From: Aminomonas paucivorans DSM 12260
Lineage (GTDB): Bacteria; Synergistota; Synergistia; Synergistales; Synergistaceae
DNA length: 64,000 nt
Reading direction: 5' to 3'
Assembly: GCF_000165795.1 (NCBI RefSeq)
Contig: NZ_CM001022.1
Span: forward strand, 2,141,812 to 2,205,811
The number at the start of each line of letters is the position of its first letter. The stretch's first letter is position 1. Position numbers and translations under genes: made by a program. Below the pieces are notes generated by a model. That model made no database searches and had not been told where the DNA came from. It was given only the letters and a program-made list of their open reading frames with translations. Positions 37,533-53,770 of this stretch are shown here, one piece after another.

Positions 37533-37589
37533 ACGGGTGGCCGCCCGATCGCTCGGGAGGGACCCCATTTCGATCCTGGAGGGATGACC

Positions 37590-39287
37590 ATGAGACGATC
37601 CACACGACGCGCCTGGGTGGCCTTCGCCGGGGGCCTGGCCCTCTGGGGAACGGCCTTCCTGACGGGGACCCTGCCGGTGAGCGCCACACCTCGGAGCACC
37701 ACCTACCCCTACCCCATCAACTCCCCCGCGGACCTCTTCGCCGCGGGCAGCGGCCTGGCCCAGGAGGGACAGGACGCGGTGGGGCAGGCGGACCACCCCA
37801 CCCTGGACATCTCCTCCAAGGCCTTCGGCCTGCACCTGGGAAACGGCACGGGAACGGCCGTCAACCCCGCGGGGCTCACGGCCCTCCTGATCCGGGCCCA
37901 GCGGCCCTCCGGCACCCTGGCGGTCTGGGGGAACAACCAGGACACCAAGAAGGCAGTGACCCTCACCACCTCCGGCAAGGTGGCCACGGGATCCTCCGCC
38001 ACCATCGCCGCCAAGACCAGCCAGGACTTCACCCTGGGATGGAACTTCGGCAACTCCCGGGAACGCATGTCCAAGCTCACCCTTCAGGCGGCCTACGACA
38101 AGGGCTCCCGCAGCCAGGCCTTCTACGTGGCCCGGCTGGACTTGGGGGACGCCTTCGACCTGAACTACGCCGTGGGGGGCACCCAGCCCGCAGCTTTCCA
38201 GACCGTCGCCCTCAACCCCGCCAACGGGTCGGAGGAAGACCTGGAGCTGGGGGTGCTGGCGGCCAGCGCGGACCTGCTCTGGCTGCGCGTGAACAACTGG
38301 GGCTCCAACCTGGTCACCGTGGAGGGCACCGGCGTCTCCAAAGACGCGGACCTCTTTCCGGGCACCAACGCGACGGTGACGGGGCACTCCTGGGTCTACC
38401 CGGGCTTCGCCCAGCAGCTCAAATCCGACGCCATCTCCGGAGACCCCACCTACGCCCTCACCCTTCGGGGAGCGGGGGGGTACACCTACTCCTCCACCCA
38501 CACCATCACCCTCCTGGTGAAGCGCTACGCCGAGCGGTTCACCACCTCCCGGGTGGGGGGCGCCGAGATGACCGCGATCACCCTGGACCTGCCTGCGGAC
38601 GTGACGGGGGAGATCCCCGAAAGCCTGGACGCGGGGACCCTGGAGCCGGTGAGCGACAAGTACCTTCCCCTGGTGAAGGACCCCATCGCCGCGGTGTCCC
38701 TGCGCATGATCCCCCAGGGAACCCCCACCGCCACGTGGGTGCAGCCGGTGCTGGTGAACTGGGAGATCTCCCGCACCATGCTGGAGAAGACCCTGACCTC
38801 CGCCGACGCCGCCGCCTTCCTGGAGGAGCTGGCCGCCTCCAGCGAGAAGCTCACCACCTTCTTCACCCGGGTGCGCCCCTACAAGCACTTCCCCTCTCAG
38901 GTGGTGGACCTTTTGACCCTGGCCAACGCCACGGGAAACCGGGAAGCCTTCTTCACCGTGGCCAGCGACCCCGCCACGGGGAAGGCCACCCTCTTCTTCC
39001 GCCTTCTGGTGGCCGACTCGGGCACCCCGGAGGTCACGACGATCCTGGAGGACGGCATCGGCTACTTCCTGGTGTCCGACGGGGTGGAGGACGGGGTCCT
39101 GGAAGACCCCCTCTGCCTGTGCGCCTCCAACGTCACCCCCCCCACGACGATCCCCACGACGGCACCCACAGGGACCCATCCCACGGGCGGGGGCGGCAGT
39201 TCCGGAGGCGGATGCACGGCGGGGCTTCTTTTCCCCTGGGGCTTCCTGCTGACCCTGCCCCTCTTCCTCCTGCGCCGCCGGGGTTAG
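37590..39287 (+). CDS. Secreted surface protein with Synerg-CTERM sorting tail
   Basis: Exported protein of 565 residues. It has an N-terminal signal peptide (RRSTRRAW then a hydrophobic run, cleavage probably after VSA near residue 32). The long extracellular region is rich in Thr, Ser, Asn and Gly, looks beta-rich, and has no recognised domain. The C-terminus has a Thr/Pro linker, GGGGSSGGGC, a hydrophobic helix and a final RRRG. That arrangement is the Synergistota-specific Synerg-CTERM sorting signal, which probably means membrane anchoring or processing at the Cys-containing site. ATG 37590 is preferred over 37584 because GGAGGG needs some spacing. The substrate or partner is unknown. 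Confidence 0.82.
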   Translation: MRRSTRRAWVAFAGGLALWGTAFLTGTLPVSATPRSTTYPYPINSPADLFAAGSGLAQEGQDAVGQADHPTLDISSKAFGLHLGNGTGTAVNPAGLTALLIRAQRPSGTLAVWGNNQDTKKAVTLTTSGKVATGSSATIAAKTSQDFTLGWNFGNSRERMSKLTLQAAYDKGSRSQAFYVARLDLGDAFDLNYAVGGTQPAAFQTVALNPANGSEEDLELGVLAASADLLWLRVNNWGSNLVTVEGTGVSKDADLFPGTNATVTGHSWVYPGFAQQLKSDAISGDPTYALTLRGAGGYTYSSTHTITLLVKRYAERFTTSRVGGAEMTAITLDLPADVTGEIPESLDAGTLEPVSDKYLPLVKDPIAAVSLRMIPQGTPTATWVQPVLVNWEISRTMLEKTLTSADAAAFLEELAASSEKLTTFFTRVRPYKHFPSQVVDLLTLANATGNREAFFTVASDPATGKATLFFRLLVADSGTPEVTTILEDGIGYFLVSDGVEDGVLEDPLCLCASNVTPPTTIPTTAPTGTHPTGGGGSSGGGCTAGLLFPWGFLLTLPLFLLRRRG

Positions 39288-39390: not shown

Positions 39391-40308
39391 ATGAGCGACA
39401 CGCAGAACCTGGAACAGCTTCTCGAAGCCCTGATGGACGCGGAGGACCCCAAGGAGGTCCGCCGGATCGCCGGATCCATCCTCACCCTGGACGGGTCCCA
39501 CCCGGCGGGTCACCTGGCCCTGTGGGAACTGATGGAGGAGGAGGAGTCCCTGAACTCCCTGGGACAGCTGGAGAAGGCCCTGGCGGAGACGCGGAAGCGC
39601 TTCGGCGGCGCTCCCGCAAGCCTGTACGACGAGAACCCCCTGACGGAGATCTACGGAGCCCTTCTGATGCACCTGGCCTTCGGCTTCCATGCCAAGGAGG
39701 AGCTGGAGCGGGCCCTGGCCTTCGCCCAGGACCTGGTGGCCTTCGACGACGAGGGGGTCTACCCGGGACGCACGGTCTTCTACCGGTGTCTGCTGGACCT
39801 GAAGCAGTACGACCGCATCCTGGAAGCCCTGGAGGAGGACCCCCTGGAGACCCCCGTGGGAGAGCACGCCCGGACCCTGGCCCTCCTGGAGACCAAGGGG
39901 GTGTGCGACGAGACCATGGAGGCCCTGCTCAACGCCCTGTCCCTGGACACGAACCTGCCCTTCCTCATCCTGGACCTGACGATCCTTCCGGAGGAGGACG
40001 AAGAGCTGGGGGCGGAGCTGGAGGAGACCTTCCACCAGGCGGTGTACCTCCAGACCCCCTGGACGGAGACGCAGGAGCGGGCGAGCTTCCTCGCTCTGCC
40101 CACCCTCATCCTGGGGTCTCTCACGGGGCGTCTGGAGCAGGAGGACCAGGAGGCGCTGGAGGAGATGCTGAAGGATTCGGGCCTGGAGGACGGGGTGGCC
40201 CGGCTTCAGGCGGAGGCGGCGGCGAGGGACGCCGACGAGGACCCGGACGAGCGGGACCAGTGGGCCATGGAGGAACTCATGAAGCTCCTCCTGCCCGAGG
40301 GTAACTGA
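39391..40308 (+). CDS. Acidic helical-repeat (TPR-like) protein, unknown
   Basis: Soluble protein of 305 residues, very acidic and almost entirely alpha-helical by composition, resembling tetratricopeptide-type repeats (for example EELERALAFAQDLVAFDDEGVY and the block at about residues 60-75). No membrane segment or signal. TPR-like proteins usually act as protein-binding scaffolds. The strong ribosome site GGAAGGAG precedes ATG 39391. It is transcribed alone, with a terminator at 40328. Family not identified with confidence. Confidence 0.72.
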   Translation: MSDTQNLEQLLEALMDAEDPKEVRRIAGSILTLDGSHPAGHLALWELMEEEESLNSLGQLEKALAETRKRFGGAPASLYDENPLTEIYGALLMHLAFGFHAKEELERALAFAQDLVAFDDEGVYPGRTVFYRCLLDLKQYDRILEALEEDPLETPVGEHARTLALLETKGVCDETMEALLNALSLDTNLPFLILDLTILPEEDEELGAELEETFHQAVYLQTPWTETQERASFLALPTLILGSLTGRLEQEDQEALEEMLKDSGLEDGVARLQAEAAARDADEDPDERDQWAMEELMKLLLPEGN

Positions 40309-40327: not shown

Positions 40328-40364
40328 CGGGGGGCGGGACCGATCGGGTCCCGCCCCCCGTTTC
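40328..40364. terminator. Bidirectional intrinsic terminator
   Basis: Perfect 14-base stem (40328-40341 with 40347-40360) and a 5-base loop, followed by TTTCGT. It lies between the convergent genes ending at 40308 and 40380. Confidence 0.85.
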
Positions 40365-40379: not shown

Positions 40380-40811
40380 CTACAGCCCGTAGGTCTCCGG
40401 GGCCTCCCCCCGGGCTAGGGCGTACTCCCGCAGCTGATCCCCCGCGGAGGCCAGGCACAGCTCCACCATGAAAAGGTCGTCCAGATACCCCACCACGGGC
40501 AGGAAATCCGGGATCACGTCCAGGGGATCGCACAGGTACCCCAGGGTGGCTCCCAGGGCGGTCACCGCGCGCCAGGGAAGCTCCGCCTTCCCCCCACGCC
40601 AGGCCCGGAGCAGGTCCGCCATCAGCCGAAGTCGGAGGACCAACAGCCGCCCCCTCTCCCCGGGGACCTTCGCCAGGCTCCTCAGGTGCCCCTCCACCCG
40701 TTGCAGGACCTCGTCCAGCTCTTCCTCCCGAACCCGCCCCTGGTCCTTGTGGAACCGGGCCTCCAGCAGGGCCTTCTGATCCGAGGGAAGGGCCATTTCC
40801 CGTTCCTTCAT
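40380..40811 (-). CDS. YkvA-like DUF1232 protein
   Basis: Small protein of 143 residues. The C-terminal half holds the DUF1232 signature DPLDVIPDFLPVVGYLDDLF at about 96-115, which is a short membrane-associated helical pair. The N-terminal half is charged and helical. Function of the family is not established; members are often near membrane or stress genes. It is the last gene of the operon that starts with UPF0182, 24 bases after the previous stop, with GGAGGAG before the ATG. Confidence 0.8.
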   Translation of the reverse strand: MKEREMALPSDQKALLEARFHKDQGRVREEELDEVLQRVEGHLRSLAKVPGERGRLLVLRLRLMADLLRAWRGGKAELPWRAVTALGATLGYLCDPLDVIPDFLPVVGYLDDLFMVELCLASAGDQLREYALARGEAPETYGL

Positions 40812-40835
40812 GTCCCGTCTCCTCCCCTCGATCCC

Positions 40836-41798
40836 TCAGGCCGGGCAGAACAGCCGGTGCCCTCCCCGGGAGAACAGGTCCCAGAAGGACTCCTCCGGCT
40901 CCTTCACCCCCTCCAGGACTTCCCGGCTCACCAGCCAAAGGTCCAGGGGCAGGGAAGGTGCCGCCAGTTGCGCCCCCAGGGGGGTCCAGCGCGCCGCCAG
41001 CTCCCGGGCCTGTCCCTCTTCTTCGCAGCACCCCACCCACCAGGTCACCGCGTCCTGTTCCTGGGCGTCCCGGTCGAAGAGACGAGGAAGCAACAGACGC
41101 CGCTGGTGGAGGAGGAACAGGTGCACCTCCCCCAGGTGGGCCGCCAGGTCCTCCAGGGTGGTGTCCGCCCCCACGAAGTGGCACAGCAGCCGGTCGGTGT
41201 TGGCGAAGCCTCCCTCGTCGGTGGGCAGGGGAAGCTGGTCCTGGTAGCAGTGGAAGTCGTAGCGGAACAGCAGCAGCAGGTCCAGGGAGAGGCGCCCCCA
41301 GGGAAGGTCCCAGGGGGCGCGGAAGGCCTCCGCCTCCTCCCGGGAGGAAGGAACCGCCAGGGGACGATCCCGAAGGGCCCTCACCGCCGGGTGTTCCCCG
41401 AAGAGCCAGCGCACCCCCTCCGTCCCGCAGCGATGGCGTTCCTCCGGGGACAGCCCCGGCCAGAAGGACAGAACCGCGCCGGGCTGGAACTCCTTCAGCC
41501 CCCAGCGCCCCCGGAAGGCCCGGTCCAGCAGGAGTTGCCACCGGGTACGCCGCAGACTCTGCCGGCAGTCCTCCGGGAAAGGGCCTGGGGCGGCGTCCAG
41601 GAAGCACTCCGCCGCCTCGGCCCGGAAACCCGCCGTCCCCTCCTGCGTCAGGCTCCAGACTCCCTCCCGCTCCTCCACCAGGCCCCTTCGGGCCAGGAGG
41701 TCCAGGTCCTCCGGGGACTCCCCCGCCAGGACAAACAGCTCCCCCGTCCACACGGGGTGGTCCCGGTCGAACCGAAGCAGCGCCGTGGTTGCGGACAT
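40836..41798 (-). CDS. Unrecognised 320-residue protein in the kinase/phosphatase operon
   Basis: I do not recognise this family. It is rich in Leu, Trp, Arg and acidic residues and appears soluble, with no signal peptide. Features include a WDLPWGRLSLDLLLLFRYDF block near residue 164 and a CC pair at about residue 258. GGAGAGGAG precedes ATG 41798. It lies 42 bases after the secreted-protein gene and 24 before the DUF1232 gene, so it belongs to the same transcript. Its composition and codon use match the rest of the operon. Confidence 0.7.
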   Translation of the reverse strand: MSATTALLRFDRDHPVWTGELFVLAGESPEDLDLLARRGLVEEREGVWSLTQEGTAGFRAEAAECFLDAAPGPFPEDCRQSLRRTRWQLLLDRAFRGRWGLKEFQPGAVLSFWPGLSPEERHRCGTEGVRWLFGEHPAVRALRDRPLAVPSSREEAEAFRAPWDLPWGRLSLDLLLLFRYDFHCYQDQLPLPTDEGGFANTDRLLCHFVGADTTLEDLAAHLGEVHLFLLHQRRLLLPRLFDRDAQEQDAVTWWVGCCEEEGQARELAARWTPLGAQLAAPSLPLDLWLVSREVLEGVKEPEESFWDLFSRGGHRLFCPA

Positions 41799-41840
41799 GC
41801 GGTTTCTCCTCTCCGGGCCCCGGAGGCCCCTCGGAACGCC

Positions 41841-43193
41841 CTACGGCGCCGGGGCCGCCAGCCGGTCCCCGTACACCGTCACCGCCTTCTCCCAGGTCCC
41901 CGCCGGGTAGGTCTTGGAACGGACCCCCTCGGGGAGGATCTTCGTCAGGGTCACGGGGGCTCCGCCGTTGCCGGAGAGGCGCAGCACCAGACGCTGCCCC
42001 GCCCGAAGGCCCACCAGGGTCTCCCGGGGCAGGGCAACCTTCGGTCCTCCGTAGGGAGCCCCTTGGGTGTCCAGGAGGCGGAGGGCCTTGAGCCCCCCCC
42101 GGTCCACCCGCACCAGGCCCCAGGGCCCTCCCCGAGCCCCCGTCAGGACTCCCTGGAGCAGACGAAGGTTCGTCTCCTCCCCCGGAGGGGCCGCCTCCAG
42201 CAGTTCCGCCGCGTTTCGCAGCAGGGCGCCCCCCGGATCCGCCCCCTCCCCCGTCAGGATCGGGGCCAGGGCCTTCCCGGCACCCCGGGGATCGGCGGGC
42301 CAGAACGCCGCAGCCTGGGCCACCGCGGCCAGGCTCCGGGACGGGGCCTCCCCCTCTCCCGGGGGGATCCTTCCGGCCATCCAGAGAAGCACCCCCGCGG
42401 GGGGCTCCCCCTCCACCGTCAGTTCCTGGATCCCTCCAGCCAGGGGGGACCGGGCGTTTCCCAGGATCAGGGCTCCCTGGACCTGGATCCGGACCCGTCC
42501 CCGATGGGGGGCCAGAAAGGCCGGAACCCCCGCCTGGGGCACCAGCTCGAACCGTCCGCTCCTCTCCCGGACGGAGCAGCGCTGGGTGCCCGTGGTGCGC
42601 AGACCGGAGGGCTCCGGGTCCAGGGACTGCCCCTCCAGGCGCAGCTCCAGAAATCCCTGCTGGGCGGCGATCCAGGCGGGCAGGTTGGCCCCGGGGTGGA
42701 ACCGGTCCACCACCTCCACCCGCAGGGGAACGGGCAGTCCCGGAGACACCCGCGCCCCGGGAACGGGGGACACTTTCTGGACCTCCAGGGCCATGCCCAC
42801 GTCGAAGCCCGTCCGGACGGAGCCCTCCGGCAGGGTCAGGTCCACCTCCTCCCGGAGGGGTTTGCCCTTCAGGTCCGGACCGGTGTACCGGTAGGCCACC
42901 GCCAGGGGAACGCCGGGGTCCAGCTCCACCTCCACTCGGGGTCCCTCCGCCCCACCGGGGACCGACAGGACTCCCAACCCGGAGGTGAGGGAAAGCACCC
43001 CCCGCTGGGGCCCCGAGGCGAGGTCGCCCTTCCAGTGCAGCCGAAGCTCGTTGCGGGCCCCGGGAAGGGAGGGGATCGCCGGGACGCGGGGAACCAGTTC
43101 CACCCGCGGGGCCCCCTGGGCGGTCCCCAAGGCGCTCCCCAGGACCCACAGGGCCCCCAGGATCAGCCCGCGAAGAGATCGGAATCGTCGCAT
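41841..43193 (-). CDS. Secreted protein of unknown function
   Basis: Exported protein of 450 residues with a clear signal peptide (MRRFRSLRG then a hydrophobic core, cleavage probably near AQGA, residue 28). The mature part is Gly-, Pro-, Leu- and Val-rich with beta-like repeats, and lacks recognised catalytic motifs. It starts 25 bases after the kinase stop, with GGAGGTG six bases upstream. Co-expression with a Ser/Thr kinase suggests it may be a cell-envelope output or ligand-sensing partner, which is inference from position only. Confidence 0.75.
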   Translation of the reverse strand: MRRFRSLRGLILGALWVLGSALGTAQGAPRVELVPRVPAIPSLPGARNELRLHWKGDLASGPQRGVLSLTSGLGVLSVPGGAEGPRVEVELDPGVPLAVAYRYTGPDLKGKPLREEVDLTLPEGSVRTGFDVGMALEVQKVSPVPGARVSPGLPVPLRVEVVDRFHPGANLPAWIAAQQGFLELRLEGQSLDPEPSGLRTTGTQRCSVRERSGRFELVPQAGVPAFLAPHRGRVRIQVQGALILGNARSPLAGGIQELTVEGEPPAGVLLWMAGRIPPGEGEAPSRSLAAVAQAAAFWPADPRGAGKALAPILTGEGADPGGALLRNAAELLEAAPPGEETNLRLLQGVLTGARGGPWGLVRVDRGGLKALRLLDTQGAPYGGPKVALPRETLVGLRAGQRLVLRLSGNGGAPVTLTKILPEGVRSKTYPAGTWEKAVTVYGDRLAAPAP

Positions 43194-43218
43194 CGAACAC
43201 ACCTCCACGTAGTTCCGT

Positions 43219-44769
43219 TCAGGGCAGGGGGTTTCCGGTCTCTCCGGGATCCCCCTGCCGAAGCCGTTCCCACAACGCCTGGGCTCCGGGGTAGGTGGCG
43301 TCCCGGGAGAGCAGTTCCTGCAGGAAGGACTGGGCCTCCTCGTTCCGCCCCTGTCCCTCCGCCGCCTGGGCGGCCAGGAAAAGGGCGGGGGCGTCCCGGG
43401 GAGCCAGATCCAGGGCCCGTCGGGCCTCCTGAGCTGCGGCGTCGAAGCGCCTCCGGGCCAGGTGGATCCGGGCCAACATCCGGTGCGGGCTCGGATCCCG
43501 GGGGGAGGAACGCACCGCCTCCTCCAGGATCGCCAGGGCCCCCGCCTCGTCCCCGGCGGACCAGCGCGCCTGGGCTCGGGCCAGCAGGTCCCCGGGAGGG
43601 GAGGGAGACGGGGCGGGGGAAGGGAAAGCCTGGGAGGGCTGGGGAGAAGGGCTCGGGACGCCCGAGAGCGTCCCCTCCTCTCCCCGGGACGAGGGGGAAT
43701 CGGGACGCAGGTGCATCGCCGCCCCCGTGAGGGCTCCCGCCGCCAGCACCGCCAGGACCACCCACCGTTTCTTCGGAGAACGCCGAAGGGGCAGGGGGTG
43801 GGTCCGCCGCTCCCCCTGGATGAGGGCGTTTCGAAACGCCTCCACGGAGGGGTAGCGGTCCTGCGCCCGCACCGCCAGTCCCCGCAACAGGGCCGCCTCC
43901 GTCTGGGGCGGCAGGGGGACCTCCAGCAGGGAGGGGGCCACCAGGGTATCCTCGTGGAGCCGGTCCAGGGCATCCGGGGGAGGCTGGCCGGTGAGGCAGC
44001 GATACAGGGTGGCCGCCAGGCCGTACACGTCCGACCAGGGCCCCTGCTCCCCCCGGCTCCGGTACTGCTCCTCCGGGGCGTAGCCGGGCTTGAGGATCAC
44101 CGAAAGGCTGCGGCTGCTGCGCCTCAGGGCGGAGCGGGCCGCGCCGAAGTCCAGGAGGGTGACGGTGCCCTTCCGAGGCACCAGAACGTTGTCGGGGCTC
44201 ACGTCCCGGTGCAGCCACCCCACTCGATGGACCTCCTCCAGGGCGTCCATCACCGGATGGAGAAGCTCCAGCGCCTCCTCCAGGGGGATGCGCCCCCCCC
44301 GATCCTCCAGATAGGCCTTCAGGGTCCGCCCCTCCAGGTAGGTCATCACCATGTAGGCGGTGCCGTGAGCCCGGAAGGAATCCCGCACGGAGACGATGCC
44401 CGGCACGTCGTCGAACCGGGCCAGGGTCCGGGCTTCCTCCAGGAAACGCTCCAGCCCCTCCTGGTAGGCCTCCCCCTCCTCCCCCGCCGGGGGCACCACC
44501 CCGGGGCCCCTAGGGTCCCGGGCGACCAGCCCCAGGGGAAAGTACTCCTTCACCGCCAGCTTCCGCTCCAGGGAGCGGTCCCAGGCCAGGTAGGTGATGC
44601 CGAAGCCGCCCTGCCCCAGCACCGCCCCGATGCGGTAGCGGTCCTGCAGCAGGGTGCCCGGGGGCAGCCGGGAGGGGGAGGAGACCTCCACGGGGCCTCG
44701 CCCGCAGTGGGGACAGGCTTCGCCGGTCCAGCCCTCGCCGCCGCAAAAGGGGCACCGATCCTCGCTCAC
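43219..44769 (-). CDS. Membrane-anchored Ser/Thr protein kinase with zinc ribbon and TPR domains
   Basis: Hanks-type kinase of 516 residues. A zinc-ribbon pair (CPFC/CPHC) lies at residues 6-22. The kinase domain has GQGGFG at 52-57, ATP-site Lys74, catalytic HRD at 187-189 followed by SPDN, and DFG at 207-209. The common lysine of HRDxKxxN is Ser191, as in the HRDVSPDN subgroup. A single membrane helix spans about 336-353, followed by a Ser/Pro linker and extracytoplasmic TPR-like repeats (about 395-505). Start GTG 44769 overlaps the PP2C stop (GTGA), so kinase and phosphatase are translated together and probably antagonise each other. Confidence 0.9.
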   Translation of the reverse strand: MSEDRCPFCGGEGWTGEACPHCGRGPVEVSSPSRLPPGTLLQDRYRIGAVLGQGGFGITYLAWDRSLERKLAVKEYFPLGLVARDPRGPGVVPPAGEEGEAYQEGLERFLEEARTLARFDDVPGIVSVRDSFRAHGTAYMVMTYLEGRTLKAYLEDRGGRIPLEEALELLHPVMDALEEVHRVGWLHRDVSPDNVLVPRKGTVTLLDFGAARSALRRSSRSLSVILKPGYAPEEQYRSRGEQGPWSDVYGLAATLYRCLTGQPPPDALDRLHEDTLVAPSLLEVPLPPQTEAALLRGLAVRAQDRYPSVEAFRNALIQGERRTHPLPLRRSPKKRWVVLAVLAAGALTGAAMHLRPDSPSSRGEEGTLSGVPSPSPQPSQAFPSPAPSPSPPGDLLARAQARWSAGDEAGALAILEEAVRSSPRDPSPHRMLARIHLARRRFDAAAQEARRALDLAPRDAPALFLAAQAAEGQGRNEEAQSFLQELLSRDATYPGAQALWERLRQGDPGETGNPLP

Positions 44770-45527
44770 GTCTCCCGCCCCCCCTCCTCCACCGCCAGCA
44801 CCACCGCCGTGGCGTTGTCCTGGGCGGCCTTTCCCTTCCGGGCCACCGCCTCCAGCAGGGCCGCCGCCGGGTCCTCCCCATGGGCGGACAGGGCCCGGGC
44901 CACCTCCCGATCCTCCAGGGTGCGGGTGACCCCGTCGGTGGCCAGGAGCACCCGGTCCCCGGGGCGAAGGGGCAGGGGATCCCCCGACCGGGCCACCTCC
45001 CGAAGCTCCTCAATGCCCAGGAAGCTCACCAGGGCATCTCGCTCCGGATGCCGGCGGGCCTCCTCCGGGTCCAGGCGGCCCGCCGCGGCGGCCCGCAGAA
45101 GCCGGGCCCCCACGGTGTGGTCCTCCGAAAGGAGCCGAAGCTCCCCGTCCCGCAGGAGGTACAGGCGGCTGTCCCCCACGGTGGACCAGTGGAGCCCCCC
45201 CTCGTCCAGGAGGGCCAGCACCAGGGTGGTGCCCACGTAGCCCGGGAAGCCCTCCCGGCGCCCCAGGGCGGACACGGCGGCCTGGGCCGCCGCCACCGCC
45301 CGCTCCAACAGGCGAGGGGACACCTCTTCCGCATCCTCCCCCTGGACTACCCCCCGCACCGCCTCCTCGGCGACCCGGGAGGCCCGGCCCCCCAGGGGGA
45401 GGCCCCCCATGCCGTCCGCCACCAGGGCGACCCATCCCCTCCCCCCTCGGGGAGGGAAAAGCCCCCACACGTCCTGCTGTTCCTCCCGGGAGCCCTGGAT
45501 CTGCCCCCCCCAGCCCCGGACCTTCAC
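44766..45527 (-). CDS. PP2C-family Ser/Thr protein phosphatase
   Basis: Mn/Mg-dependent phosphatase of 253 residues, expected to reverse the neighbouring kinase. PP2C motifs are seen: EEQQDVW near 16-21, VADGMGG at 36-42, GTTLVLALL near residue 107, VGDSRLYLLR, LATDGVT and QDNATAVVL. Start GTG 45527 is preceded by GGAGGG and overlaps the upstream membrane-protein stop (GTGA). No membrane helix or other domain is present. Confidence 0.92.
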   Translation of the reverse strand: MKVRGWGGQIQGSREEQQDVWGLFPPRGGRGWVALVADGMGGLPLGGRASRVAEEAVRGVVQGEDAEEVSPRLLERAVAAAQAAVSALGRREGFPGYVGTTLVLALLDEGGLHWSTVGDSRLYLLRDGELRLLSEDHTVGARLLRAAAAGRLDPEEARRHPERDALVSFLGIEELREVARSGDPLPLRPGDRVLLATDGVTRTLEDREVARALSAHGEDPAAALLEAVARKGKAAQDNATAVVLAVEEGGRET

Positions 45528-46081
45528 GGGCGTCCCTCCGGAGGGTCGTCCCGGCGAGACCGTCCCGGCGGGGCGGGAGGCGCCGTCAGATAGCCCCCTC
45601 CCTCCCGTCCCGCCGGAAGGGAGTCGTCGAAGGCCAGCACCAGCAGGGGCAGCCAGAAGAAGGCCACCAGGATCCCCCAGAGCCAGAAGTCCTTCCCCAG
45701 CCTCTGGGCGATGCGCCCCCACAGCACCGTGTGGGCCCCCGCCGCGACCAGCCACGCCAGGGGGTGCAGCAGGGGCAGGAGGGCCACCCCCGCAAAGGGC
45801 CCCGTGAGGAGAATCCCCAGGAGCACCCCCGCCAGGGCCACCGCCCCCGGGGCCAGCAGCAGCACCACGTAGGCCCCGGGCAGGTCGGCGCACCGGCACA
45901 GGAGAATCAGATTGTACACGGGGATCAGGTACCGGGGGTAGCTGTCCCGGCGGAACTTCCTCCCCACCCGGTAGAGCACGTAGGCGAAGAGGGCGTAGAC
46001 CCCCAGGCCCAGGCTCAGGGCCGACAGGGCCAGCCACACCGCCACCCCCGCAAGGCCCCACAGGCAGCCCATGGCTTCCAT
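45524..46081 (-). CDS. Small multi-helix membrane protein, unknown
   Basis: Predicted integral membrane protein of 185 residues with about four hydrophobic segments (residues 4-33, 50-60, 66-95, 105-150) and a Pro/Arg-rich cytoplasmic tail. The central KFRRDSYPRYLIPVYNLILL block resembles small membrane proteins of uncertain role. It lies 24 bases after UPF0182 and overlaps the PP2C gene, so it is expressed with the kinase/phosphatase pair and may be a membrane partner or substrate. Confidence 0.7.
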   Translation of the reverse strand: MEAMGCLWGLAGVAVWLALSALSLGLGVYALFAYVLYRVGRKFRRDSYPRYLIPVYNLILLCRCADLPGAYVVLLLAPGAVALAGVLLGILLTGPFAGVALLPLLHPLAWLVAAGAHTVLWGRIAQRLGKDFWLWGILVAFFWLPLLVLAFDDSLPAGREGGGYLTAPPAPPGRSRRDDPPEGRP

Positions 46082-46105
46082 CCCCTTCTCTCCCTCCCCG
46101 GTCCC

Positions 46106-48952
46106 CTACCGGGGCCCCTCTCCGGCCTCCACCAGTCGGCGAAGGACCGCCTCCAGCTCCCGAAGCTTCTGGCCGTAGGCGGCCCAATCCCCGGCGCGGG
46201 AGGCCTGCTGGGCCTGCTCAAAGAGTTCCTGGGCCTTCCGGGCCAGGTCCTTCGTCCCCGGGGACGGGACCCCCCCCTCCCCTTCGGGGCGGGGCTCCGC
46301 CTCCCGGACCGCCGGGGCCGCCGGGGGCCGCCTCTTCGCGGCCTTGCCGCCCCCCAGCACGTCCTCCCCCACCAGCAGGGTCAGGGCCTCCCGGAAGGTC
46401 TCCGCCCAGACCACCCGTCCTCCCGTGGAGAGGATCACCCGCTTGAGTTCCGGCAGCTCCCCCCGCTCCGCCTTCAGGTACAGGGGCTGGACGTAGAGCA
46501 GGGACTTGCCGATGGGCACCACCAGCAGGTCTCCCCGGATCACGTCGGAGCCCCGCTGGCTCCACAGGGACATCTGGGCGGAGATCTCCGGGTTCTGGTC
46601 GATGAGGGCCTCGATCTGCGGGGGCCCGAAGATGAGCTTCTGCTTCGGGAACTGGTACACCACCAGCTCCCCGTAGTGCTCCGGGTCGCACCGTCCCGCC
46701 ATCCAGCCGATGAGGTTGCTCCGCCCCACGGGCATGAAGGGCACGATGAGGGCGAACTCCGGCTTTTCCTTCCCCAACAGCTTCATGGTGACGTAGTTGG
46801 GGGAGAGGCGCTTCTCCCGGCCCGCCGGGGACACCTCCCACACGTCCTCCTTGTTGTAGTAGGTGTTGGTGTCCGTCATGTGGTAGACCCGGTACAGCTC
46901 GCTCTGCACCTCGAAGAGCCCCTCGGGGTAGCGCAGGTGGGCCCGCAGCCCCTCGGGCATCTCCGAGACGGGGCGGAAGAGCCCCGGGAAGACCCGGGCC
47001 CAGGTGGCCGCCAGGGGATCGGCGGGATCCATCAGGTAGAACCGCACCGTGCCGTCGTAGGCGTCCAGGGTGATCTTCACGCTGTTGCGCAGGTAGTTCA
47101 CCCCGTTGAGCCCCTCCAGGGAGGGGTCCTCGATGGCCAGGGGCTTGGAGTAGGGGATCCGGTCCGTGGCGGTGTAGGCGTCCTGCACCCAGAGGATGCG
47201 CCCCCCCAGCACCACCGGATAGGGGTCGTCGTCGTAGGCCAGGAAGGGGGCCATCTCCCGCAGAACCTCCCCCAGGCTTCGGCGGAAGAGGACGCGGCTG
47301 TCCGGACGCAGGGAGCCCGTGAAGAGGATCTCCGTGTCCCGGAAGCGCAGGGCAAAGAGCAGCCGCCGCCACAGGGACCCCAGGGGCACCCCTCCGGTCC
47401 CCTCATAGGTGCTCCGGGCGTTGGCATCCCCCATGGGGTAGTCGAACTCCTTCACCTCCGTCCGCACCAGGGCGTAGGTGTTGGTCTTCTCCCCGAAGTA
47501 GACCTGGGGACGGCGGATGTCCAGGGAGACGGAGGCCTTGGGGGGCAGGTCCTTCACGAAGAGCACCGGCATCCCCCCGGGGGCCACCTCGTTCACCGGG
47601 TTCATCACCACCCCGAAACCGTGGGTGAACTCCAGGTGCCGGTTCACCCAGGTGGGGTTCTGGAGCTGACTGCTGTCCAGCTCCCGCACGGAGAGCATCA
47701 CCTGCCGATGGACTCCCGACTCGTCGAAGTTATAGCGGTCGATGTCCACGTCGGAGAAGTCGTAGTAGGAGCGGATCTCCTGAAGCTGCTTGTAGGTCCG
47801 CAGCAGCGGGCCGTAGTCCCAGAGGCGGATGTTCCGCACCGTGTCCAGATCCGCCCTCAGGTCCTCCGGGGTGGTCTCCCCCGAGGGGGTGACGGAGAGG
47901 GCCCGGATCCGGTCCAGACCGTAGGCCTTGAGGGTGGCGTCCATGTGGAAGCGCAGGTAGGGCTTTTCCATCTCGTACTCGTTGGGCTTCACCACGTACT
48001 GCTGCACGATCCCCGGCACGACCACCCCCGCGATCCACCCCGCCCCCAGCAAGACCGCCAGGGCCACCAGGGAGGGACGCCACAGGGGACGGAAGAGGTT
48101 CACCGCCAGCAGCACCGCCGCGACGGCCGCCGCCCCCACGTTGAGGTACAGGGCGGGGAGCTTCACGTGCAGGTCCACGTACCCCGCCCCGAAGACGATG
48201 CCCCCGGGGGAGAGGAGCAGGTCGTAGCGGTCCAGCCACCACCCCGCCCCCCAGAGGAGCAGGAGGGAAGCGCCCAGGACCGCCAGGTGCCCCCGCACCG
48301 CCGGAGACACCCAGGGGCGCCCTTCCAGAAGCTGCACCGACCGCCCCAGGAAGTAGACCAGCAGGCAACCCGCCAGGGTGGTGAGGAGCAGCCCCGAGAA
48401 CCACCCCTGGGCGAAGCGCCAGAAGGGCAGGGAGAAGACGTAGAATCCCAGGTCCCGGTGGAACACCGGGTCCGCGGTCCCGAAGGGCTGGGCATGGAGG
48501 AACCGCAGCACCAGCCCCCAGGCGCCCCGGGTTCCCAGGCCGTTGAGGACCCCCAGGACGAGGGAGGCCCCCAGGATCCAGCGCCCCGCGGGGTGGGGAC
48601 CGGGGAGGTCCGCGAACCCTCGGGAGACGGCGAGACGCCAGTTCAGAAAGGTGAAGGCCGACGAGGCGACGAGGGCAACGGCGAAGAGCCCCCATTGGGG
48701 GAGGATCCGGGTCCAGAACACCGTCTCCTGTCCCAGGGACCGAAACCACCACAGATCCGTGACCCACCGGGCCAGCCAGGGCAGGCCGCTGAAGAGGACC
48801 AGCGCCGCCCCGGCCAGAAGGGGCAGCTTGCCCAGGCGGAAGGGCCTACGGGGAGGGGGCGGGGTCGACTCCAGGATCTCTTCCCCCTCGTTGTCCCCCT
48901 GTCCGGGGATCCACTCTTGGGCTCCTCGGGGAAACCAATCTCGAAACGTCAT
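46106..48952 (-). CDS. UPF0182 family membrane protein
   Basis: Large membrane protein of 948 residues with seven N-terminal hydrophobic helices (about 45-330) and a long exterior domain. Family features are visible: FWRFAQGWFSGLLLTTLAGC, KPNEYEMEKPYLRFHMDATLKAY, and the later NVRTEVKEFDYPMG-type and YNKEDVWEVSPAG regions. A coiled C-terminal tail follows. The molecular role of UPF0182 is unknown. ATG 48952 has GGAGGAAGG upstream. It is the first gene of a seven-gene run that includes the PP2C and Ser/Thr kinase, which is a useful hint about its biology. Confidence 0.88.
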   Translation of the reverse strand: MTFRDWFPRGAQEWIPGQGDNEGEEILESTPPPPRRPFRLGKLPLLAGAALVLFSGLPWLARWVTDLWWFRSLGQETVFWTRILPQWGLFAVALVASSAFTFLNWRLAVSRGFADLPGPHPAGRWILGASLVLGVLNGLGTRGAWGLVLRFLHAQPFGTADPVFHRDLGFYVFSLPFWRFAQGWFSGLLLTTLAGCLLVYFLGRSVQLLEGRPWVSPAVRGHLAVLGASLLLLWGAGWWLDRYDLLLSPGGIVFGAGYVDLHVKLPALYLNVGAAAVAAVLLAVNLFRPLWRPSLVALAVLLGAGWIAGVVVPGIVQQYVVKPNEYEMEKPYLRFHMDATLKAYGLDRIRALSVTPSGETTPEDLRADLDTVRNIRLWDYGPLLRTYKQLQEIRSYYDFSDVDIDRYNFDESGVHRQVMLSVRELDSSQLQNPTWVNRHLEFTHGFGVVMNPVNEVAPGGMPVLFVKDLPPKASVSLDIRRPQVYFGEKTNTYALVRTEVKEFDYPMGDANARSTYEGTGGVPLGSLWRRLLFALRFRDTEILFTGSLRPDSRVLFRRSLGEVLREMAPFLAYDDDPYPVVLGGRILWVQDAYTATDRIPYSKPLAIEDPSLEGLNGVNYLRNSVKITLDAYDGTVRFYLMDPADPLAATWARVFPGLFRPVSEMPEGLRAHLRYPEGLFEVQSELYRVYHMTDTNTYYNKEDVWEVSPAGREKRLSPNYVTMKLLGKEKPEFALIVPFMPVGRSNLIGWMAGRCDPEHYGELVVYQFPKQKLIFGPPQIEALIDQNPEISAQMSLWSQRGSDVIRGDLLVVPIGKSLLYVQPLYLKAERGELPELKRVILSTGGRVVWAETFREALTLLVGEDVLGGGKAAKRRPPAAPAVREAEPRPEGEGGVPSPGTKDLARKAQELFEQAQQASRAGDWAAYGQKLRELEAVLRRLVEAGEGPR

Positions 48953-50349: not shown

Positions 50350-51786
50350 GTGAACAACCCGAGCCCCCTTGAGGCCATCCGTGCAAAGTGGAAGGACCAC
50401 CCGGCGGTGCGCTCCGCTGCCGGAGAACTGACCAACATGGAGGACGACCTGGCCCGTCTCCGGGAAGCGGAGGACCCGGAGGAGCGCAAGGCCTATCGTC
50501 TTCTGTGGCAGCGCGCCGCCCACCAGTACTGGGAGCTGGTCTGGAGCCTGGTGGAGGCACGCATCGACGCGGAGAAGCTCCCCCCCGAAGCCCTGACCTT
50601 CGACGACGCGGAAAAGCTGGCCATCAACTTCGGCGTCCTCTCCTCCAAGGCCAATGTCCCCAACCCCCACTTCGCCGACGAACTGGACCAACCGGCCTGC
50701 CTGGACATCTACCAGTACGGACGCCTCACGGACTTCCTGGCGGAGAACTACGCCCTCCTCTTCGGGAAACCCTACGAGGGCCCCCAAGGGGGCACCACCC
50801 GGGAGGAAAAGCTGGCCCGCTTCGCCTCGGACCTGGGGGCCACGGAACAGCGCCGCCGCCTGGTGGTGTCCATGGTGCTCTCCCGCTGCGGCTTCATCAC
50901 CCCTCCGGAGGTGGAGGAGATGCTCTCGCACCTGGAGGCGCACCTGCGCATCCACACGGAGGTGGAGATGCGCACCCGCCGGGTCCGGGAGGCGGACCCC
51001 TCGGACCGGGAGAAGATCCACGAGAACAGCAAGCGCTACGAGCTGGCGGAGCACGAGCTGCTGATCAGCCTGGAGCGGGCGGCCAAGGAGATCGAGACCT
51101 TCTCCGACCCGGAACTCCAGAAGGTGCTGGGCCTTCACGACCGCACCCGCTTCCTGGCCAACCTGGAGGTGCACGTGCGCAACGAGGCGGAGCGCTGGAA
51201 GACCCGGGTGGAGATGGCGGCTAGAAAGCACAAGGGCAAGGGCGTCCCCGCCCTCAAGGGGGAACTGCGGGAGGCCTTCAACCACAAGAAGGAGTTCATG
51301 ACCCTGGCGGCGAGGAGCGCCCGCATGGACACTTCCCCCCTCAACGTGGACACGGGCAAGCCCGTGGGCTTCAAGCAGGCCGGGGAGATCATGATGGACC
51401 TCACCCCCCTGGATCCGGACATGCTCCGGGCCCCCCGGGTGCGCATGTACGGCATCCCCAAGGTGATCCTCACCCCCGGACGGGGCCTGGGGGTCTACGA
51501 CTGGACGGACAACTCCCTCCTGATCCCCCAGTTCTCCCCCTACGGGGGGGTGCTCAAAAGCTTCTGCTTCGCCCTGGGGGCCTTCCGCTGGGACAACGAC
51601 GAGGACCGGGTCCTGAAGGACTCCTACGGCCTCATCAAGGAGAACCGGGACAAGGGGATCCGAGCCCTCCAGGAGTCCTTCTGCCAGGACTACTTCATCT
51701 GGATGTCCAAGGAACGCCGGGGCTACCGGGTCCTCCCCAAGGAGACCTCCAAGTGGTTCCGGGTGCACTTCAAGAAACCCGCCTAG
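50350..51786 (+). CDS. Unrecognised 478-residue protein
   Basis: I do not recognise this family. The 478-residue protein has a helical, charged N-terminal and middle region (about 1-330) and a more hydrophobic C-terminal region with LTPGRGLGVYDWTDNSLLIP and ALGAFRWDNDEDRVLKDSYG, which may be a compact alpha/beta domain. No signal peptide or membrane helix. GTG 50350 has AAGAGGTGA upstream. It ends at a strong intrinsic terminator (51812-51853). Codon use is host-like. Confidence 0.72.
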   Translation: MNNPSPLEAIRAKWKDHPAVRSAAGELTNMEDDLARLREAEDPEERKAYRLLWQRAAHQYWELVWSLVEARIDAEKLPPEALTFDDAEKLAINFGVLSSKANVPNPHFADELDQPACLDIYQYGRLTDFLAENYALLFGKPYEGPQGGTTREEKLARFASDLGATEQRRRLVVSMVLSRCGFITPPEVEEMLSHLEAHLRIHTEVEMRTRRVREADPSDREKIHENSKRYELAEHELLISLERAAKEIETFSDPELQKVLGLHDRTRFLANLEVHVRNEAERWKTRVEMAARKHKGKGVPALKGELREAFNHKKEFMTLAARSARMDTSPLNVDTGKPVGFKQAGEIMMDLTPLDPDMLRAPRVRMYGIPKVILTPGRGLGVYDWTDNSLLIPQFSPYGGVLKSFCFALGAFRWDNDEDRVLKDSYGLIKENRDKGIRALQESFCQDYFIWMSKERRGYRVLPKETSKWFRVHFKKPA

Positions 51787-53615: not shown

Positions 53616-53651
53616 GGGGACCACAACCCGCCCCTCCCGGGGCGGGACCAT

Positions 53652-53746
53652 AGCTTCCGGGGGAGTCCCGCAGACGGGACTGAGAGGAAGGGCGAGGCCC
53701 TTCGACCCCTCGAACCTGATCCGGTTCATACCGGCGGAGGAAGGAA
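53652..53746 (+). promoter_or_regulatory. TPP riboswitch (THI element)
   Basis: The leader contains the conserved THI-box pieces CTGAGA (53680-53685), GAACCTGATC (53712-53721) and CATACCGGCGGAGGAAGG (53728-53745), closed by pairing of CTTCC (53654-53658) with GGAAG at the 3' end. High thiamine pyrophosphate would stabilise this fold and favour the terminator at 53771-53804, switching off the thi operon. The order and spacing match the family well. Confidence 0.95.
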
Positions 53747-53770
53747 GATCCAGGGGCTTGACCCATCGTG

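Follow-up and report, generated by a model that had tools for sequence, protein, structure and literature searches.

In a 64,000-nucleotide stretch of the genome of Aminomonas paucivorans DSM 12260 (hereafter the window, part of a single-contig 2.63 Mb Synergistota genome), a Ser/Thr kinase and a PP2C-type phosphatase are encoded within what appears to be one operon headed by a gene for a UPF0182 family membrane protein. What can be read from the sequence is the gene order, the family assignments, the detection of just one kinase and one phosphatase, the lack of detectable FHA domains and the conservation in a second genus. The notable feature is an FHA-less pair, the sole kinase and phosphatase detected in the genome, that keeps a conserved place together with an adjoining gene, g6; its workings we infer. 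Our preferred reading, held tentatively, is that a PpkA/PppA-like phospho-switch without FHA readers has been docked in an older envelope operon of UPF0182 and the secreted protein g5, with g6 as the candidate output. The UPF0182 membrane proteins are widespread, and the accessible parts of the literature searched assign them no function; a single detected kinase and phosphatase in its operon would make a small, clean system for testing phospho-control of UPF0182.

Seven open reading frames, all encoded on the minus strand, span 48952 to 40380 in the order UPF0182-g2-PP2C-kinase-g5-g6-g7, followed by a hairpin:

46106..48952, minus strand: UPF0182 family protein, 948 amino acids, first gene (PF03699, 928 bits)
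45524..46081, minus strand: g2, small membrane protein, 185 amino acids, with hydrophobic segments; homologues follow UPF0182 in relatives
44766..45527, minus strand: PP2C-type Ser/Thr phosphatase, 253 amino acids, GTG start (PF13672, 2.1e-14)
43219..44769, minus strand: zinc-ribbon Hanks Ser/Thr kinase, 516 amino acids, GTG start (PF00069, 5e-27, plus TPR matches)
41841..43193, minus strand: g5, secreted protein, 450 amino acids, with a signal sequence; profile matches beside UPF0182 across the family
40836..41798, minus strand: g6, predicted soluble protein, 320 amino acids; family present in 86/149 phylum genomes
40380..40811, minus strand: g7, DUF1232 protein, 143 amino acids, last gene (PF06803, 4.4e-12)
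about 40328..40360, no strand assigned: GC-rich hairpin, terminator-like, without a T-run (from sequence and fold)

The intergenic spacings from UPF0182 to g7 are, in order, 24, -4, -4, 25, 42 and 24 bases, and the two overlaps, both GTGA, flank the PP2C gene at its two ends. These coordinates confirm the first-pass annotation of the window, which had described seven genes with gaps of at most 42 bases and two GTGA overlaps. Shine-Dalgarno-like purine-rich runs were found upstream of the gene starts. The hairpin is strong (∼14 base pairs) and lies between the operon and a convergent gene at 39391-40308. A consensus promoter scan, which had little power, returned 0 sites vs. 0.2 expected. From spacing and conservation, the seven genes probably form one operon.

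The kinase consists of an N-terminal zinc ribbon (CPFC..CPHC, seen directly in the sequence), a Pkinase domain, a single transmembrane segment at about residues 336-355 (hydropathy) and C-terminal TPRs. In the window translations the kinase has intact catalytic Lys, HRD..N and DFG motifs and the PP2C has intact DGMGG, GDSR-type and DN motifs; the catalytic motifs of both enzymes are largely retained in the sister genus. PF00069 and PF13672 (PP2C_2) gave one match each in the window genome, namely the operon kinase and the operon PP2C, and one Pkinase and one PP2C_2 match were detected in each of the four genomes that carry the kinase operon. The first description, in which a transmembrane kinase and its matching phosphatase are coupled to UPF0182, to g2 and to a secreted protein, is borne out; no other such pair was detected in the genome. 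PADLOC matched the kinase alone to the anti-phage systems PD-T4-6 and Mad6; these are generic kinase matches, and a role in anti-phage defence was rejected.

The closest PDB structure to the kinase is that of PpkA (5hnv, E 3.1e-53; next best 9e-26). The PP2C has its nearest PDB relatives among bacterial PP2Cs (from 6e-30); PppA matches at 8e-18. PpkA, PppA and Fha form the threonine phosphorylation pathway of type VI secretion. The window kinase resembles PpkA in having a PP2C partner in the same operon, a transmembrane segment and a C-terminal part that is probably on the outside. The window system differs from that pathway in having neither an FHA protein nor VipB, and its outer part is made of TPRs whereas that of PpkA is a VWA domain. 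PF00498 and PF16697 both gave 0 matches in the window genome and the three sister-genus genomes, and no Pfam match to FHA or VWA was found among the operon proteins. The type VI sheath protein VipB was detected in 0/13 genomes, including the four with the kinase operon (the E. coli control was positive), and control of type VI secretion is therefore not the job of this pair. The arrangement of kinase, transmembrane segment, outer sensor and neighboring PP2C is also that of the PASTA kinases (PrkC/PknB/Stk1) with PrpC/Stp. Unlike those, the window kinase scores 155 vs. a cut-off of 450 with NF033483, aligned over the kinase part, and TPRs replace PASTA; no PASTA repeats were present among the best 25 of the 27 Pfam families listed.

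Twenty regions around relatives of the kinase were fetched, 13 of which contain a PP2C relative. In the Synergistota clusters of FHA/VWA, PP2C and zinc-ribbon kinase genes (e.g., L118, L120, L128, L130) the kinase has the same architecture as in the window (zinc ribbon, kinase, transmembrane segment, repeats), the best blastp segments being about 40-54% identical, and a PP2C of the same type is nearby. L120, for example, encodes by Pfam a VWA-FHA protein, a PP2C, an FHA-like protein, a second VWA-FHA protein and a kinase with many TPRs. FHA-type matches were found near the kinase in genomes G001, G006, G132, G023 and G042 and on a separate contig in G120; FHA matches were present in 5/5 FHA-cluster genomes of the comparison set. 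Because of these related clusters, the window pair belongs to a kinase type that is often accompanied by FHA readers elsewhere. In contrast to the clusters, it lacks adjoining FHA and VWA genes, no FHA domain was detected in its genome, and it is placed in a UPF0182 operon. The self-contained envelope signalling system proposed in the first-pass annotation is upheld in part; the FHA readers often found with this kinase type are missing here. No publication on the pair in this operon turned up in the searches, which covered few subscription journals.

UPF0182 was found in 73/149 phylum genomes at E≤0.001 (72 above the cut-off) and in 35/52 genomes of the family; the relatives of the window compared here are mostly Synergistaceae. 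We fetched 22 family UPF0182 loci besides the window, leaving out family genome G132, in which one UPF0182 fragment shares its contig with g5. Three loci from a sister genus (L057, L060, L071) read UPF0182-PP2C-kinase-g5-g6-<c7, so that the order UPF0182-PP2C-kinase-g5-g6 is common to them and the window, where g2 lies between the first two genes. Rounded identities between the window and sister-genus proteins are 47-48% for UPF0182, 38-44% for PP2C, 44-45% for the kinase, 29-30% for g5 and 39-42% for g6, with extremes stated as 28-48%. Three genomes from a different genus share the order at this level of identity, and the arrangement is therefore not chance; conservation in relatives, the lack of which the first-pass annotation had named as grounds for giving up its interpretation, was found in a second genus. 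In 14 of the 22 fetched loci, as in the window, the region ends with the convergent gene c7.

The kinase adjoins UPF0182 in 4 of the 35 UPF0182-bearing family genomes, from two genera. Any Pkinase match was found in 15 of the 35, and draft contigs limit what the 11 non-adjacent cases can tell. We performed a profile scan of 73 loci (sets of 25 and 40, partly overlapping, and 8 plasmid loci; the window was left out), in which kinase and PP2C were detected only in L057, L060 and L071. No Ser/Thr kinase or PP2C is annotated within 5 kb in the eight plasmid UPF0182 regions, a small and biased sample of four Pseudomonadota, two Actinomycetota, one Bacillota and one haloarchaeon; PLSDB gene tables are incomplete, and the same eight loci were also included in the scan in six frames. 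The UPF0182-PP2C-kinase neighborhood was not recovered from these plasmid regions of other groups, and a general UPF0182-kinase partnership is rejected on the basis of the family genomes, the 73-locus scan and the plasmids. The functional context that the operon was said to give to UPF0182 applies to four genomes in two genera and does not extend to the family at large. These results make the link between kinase and UPF0182 a suggestive one, confined to a few lineages. With coupling in only 4/35 UPF0182 genomes, UPF0182 and g5 therefore work without the kinase and phosphatase.

The recurrent family unit is UPF0182-(small membrane protein)-g5, and the kinase is lineage-limited; the reliable link to emerge from the comparison is that of g5 as recurrent partner of UPF0182. 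g5 is located 3' of UPF0182 in 18 of the 22 fetched family loci (one as a 70-amino-acid fragment) and in the window (19/23); of the four loci without g5, two stop at contig ends and two lack it. The protein has a signal sequence, a predicted Ig-like N domain and a conserved C-terminal domain. Its structural model is poor overall (predicted local distance difference test score, pLDDT, 53), and confidence is limited to the N domain, where residues ∼31-130 have pLDDT mostly of 64-94 and Foldseek returned Ig-like folds at E about 7e-4. A secreted protein of about 250 amino acids, c8, follows g5 in 11 of the 19 kinase-free family loci (e.g., L062, L061, L069); a relationship of c8 to g6 was rejected after profile comparison (probability 0.1 on a percent scale, E 0.65). 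In genomes G078 and G109 (L113, L114) a g5 homologue is flanked by neighbors similar to those in UPF0182 loci of the same genus, and UPF0182 has no match anywhere in either genome. UPF0182 was apparently lost there and g5 kept, i.e., g5 apparently can outlive UPF0182, and these two genomes are natural controls. A module resembling g5 makes up the C-terminal half of longer proteins (1,107-1,176 amino acids) in six genomes from a different family (f5; L107-L112). The genes for these proteins and for UPF0182 are on separate contigs, and the one protein tested (L109) gave no Pfam match.

The UPF0182 protein aligns to model positions 4-770 of 770 of PF03699. Hydropathy indicates several hydrophobic segments, and the protein probably has an N-terminal membrane region followed by a large domain outside the membrane. 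The predicted model (predicted template modelling score 0.72) gave no match in PDB at E≤0.001; the top VIA-align hit (Z 8.0) pairs membrane helices with unrelated receptors and is uninformative. g2 also has several hydrophobic segments by hydropathy, with a match to DUF5684 (E 0.033) below the cut-off, and its homologues are immediately 3' of UPF0182 in 13 of the 22 fetched family loci, plus the window. Among the three proteins first listed as unknowns, g5 and g6 indeed match no Pfam family, whereas g7 is a DUF1232 protein (4e-12) and not wholly unknown.

g6 is single-copy and inside the operon in all four kinase-operon genomes; a further 12 family genomes carry it at sites not next to UPF0182. 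It adjoins UPF0182 only where PP2C and kinase are also present. Weak matches to HTH_45 were seen in 5/21 members (best 0.029), with eS19 at 0.04, all of them sub-threshold. A g6 relative was also noticed ∼14.5 kb from an FHA/VWA-cluster kinase in G023 (L120, L141), and similarly in G033, which may be chance.

Under our preferred reading, an old envelope operon of the Synergistaceae would comprise UPF0182, a small membrane protein and the secreted, Ig-like g5, and a PpkA/PppA-like kinase-phosphatase switch would be carried additionally in two genera. The kinase domain would be cytoplasmic and the TPR region outside, where the TPRs might monitor the condition of the envelope, perhaps through contact with g5 or with the outward-facing part of UPF0182. 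A cytoplasmic target would then be phosphorylated by the kinase and reset by the PP2C. Because FHA readers are missing and g6 adjoins UPF0182 only alongside kinase and phosphatase, the soluble g6 would be the likeliest output; a second candidate would be the tails that UPF0182 or g2 have in the cytoplasm. Several observations weigh against this proposal. The sister-genus kinases have no zinc ribbon, g2 and g7 are missing from the sister-genus operons (g7 is absent from the corresponding place in all three loci), and few UPF0182 genomes have the kinase beside it. The grouping of the operon kinases in the kinase tree is weak (67/61), the winged helix that g6 may possibly have at its N-terminus corresponds to sub-threshold matches only, and the interactions, substrates and activity of the pair are putative. 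We consider unlikely the more specific version in which a UPF0182-g5 envelope complex is read by the kinase TPRs and the signal passes by Ser/Thr phosphorylation, without FHA, to g6 as a DNA- or protein-binding regulator. If true, it would be an envelope-to-cytoplasm pathway in one operon that runs through the only Ser/Thr kinase detected in the genome, and a first handle on UPF0182.

PrkC/PrpC is a general kinase-phosphatase pair with many targets across the cell. The window pair could likewise be a general one with many cell-wide targets, co-transcribed with UPF0182 and g5 and functionally unlinked to them. This is a serious possibility, if a somewhat doubtful one: the pair is the sole kinase and phosphatase detected in the genome, most of the family keeps UPF0182 and g5 without it, and the same kinase type occurs elsewhere without an adjoining UPF0182, whereas a general pair would leave unaccounted for the same operon placement that two genera retain with protein identities of 28-48% and the company of g6. 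It is improbable, in our estimate, that UPF0182 itself is the main substrate, with the switch setting its activity through the cytoplasmic N-terminal tail. UPF0182 is the first gene on the presumed shared transcript, and its N-tail (about residues 1-40) was predicted with low confidence, consistent with disorder, and contains Ser/Thr; however, no common site is evident by eye in the N-tails of kinase-bearing vs. kinase-free genomes, the topology is only predicted, and UPF0182 is widespread without the kinase. That the pair is a decaying remnant of an FHA/VWA cluster with its readers lost would fit the absence of FHA and VWA partners beside it, of FHA from the whole genome and of the sister-genus zinc ribbon, but is very unlikely given catalytic motifs that are intact in the window and largely kept in the sister genus, and reading frames that are open in two genera.

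The kinases of the window and the sister genus form a group next to the FHA-cluster kinases in the kinase tree, and in the PP2C tree window and sister genus group at 89/98. The UPF0182 tree (midpoint root) places the sister genus deepest and the window next, below the remaining family; a clade of window and sister genus is rejected (approximately unbiased test, p-AU 0.02) on a tree with long branches and odd composition. Taken together, the UPF0182, kinase and PP2C trees favor a pair that was already present in the ancestor of the family and was lost later, with transfer as the alternative.

Genes upstream of UPF0182 presumably encode proteins resembling an MFS transporter, serine dehydratase subunits, RidA, and YbaK-like, DUF218-like and TrmO-like proteins. 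In Leptospirillum, a UPF0182 gene of the same PF03699 family is reported with the spermidine-synthesis genes speH/speE/odc (PMC7231039), whereas none of the Synergistota neighbors examined is evidently of that kind, and a spermidine context for UPF0182 in Synergistota is not supported by the upstream genes examined. The accessible parts of PMC10433963, PMC3582634 and PMC7231039 give no function for UPF0182; Rv3193c is listed among transposon hits in the part of PMC8093794 that was available, and no mention of 'COG1615' was found in the literature searched. The divergent gene upstream of UPF0182 (50350-51786, plus strand), c61, encodes about 477 amino acids and is conserved between the window and the sister-genus loci L057, L060 and L071; the window copy has no Pfam match. 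A thiamine pyrophosphate (TPP) riboswitch is located at 53649-53759 on the plus strand (76.2 bits). On the other side of the operon, 37584-39287 (plus strand) encodes a secreted protein whose C-terminus (GGGC..LLFPWGFLLTLPLFLLRRR) we take to resemble a Synergist-CTERM sorting signal.

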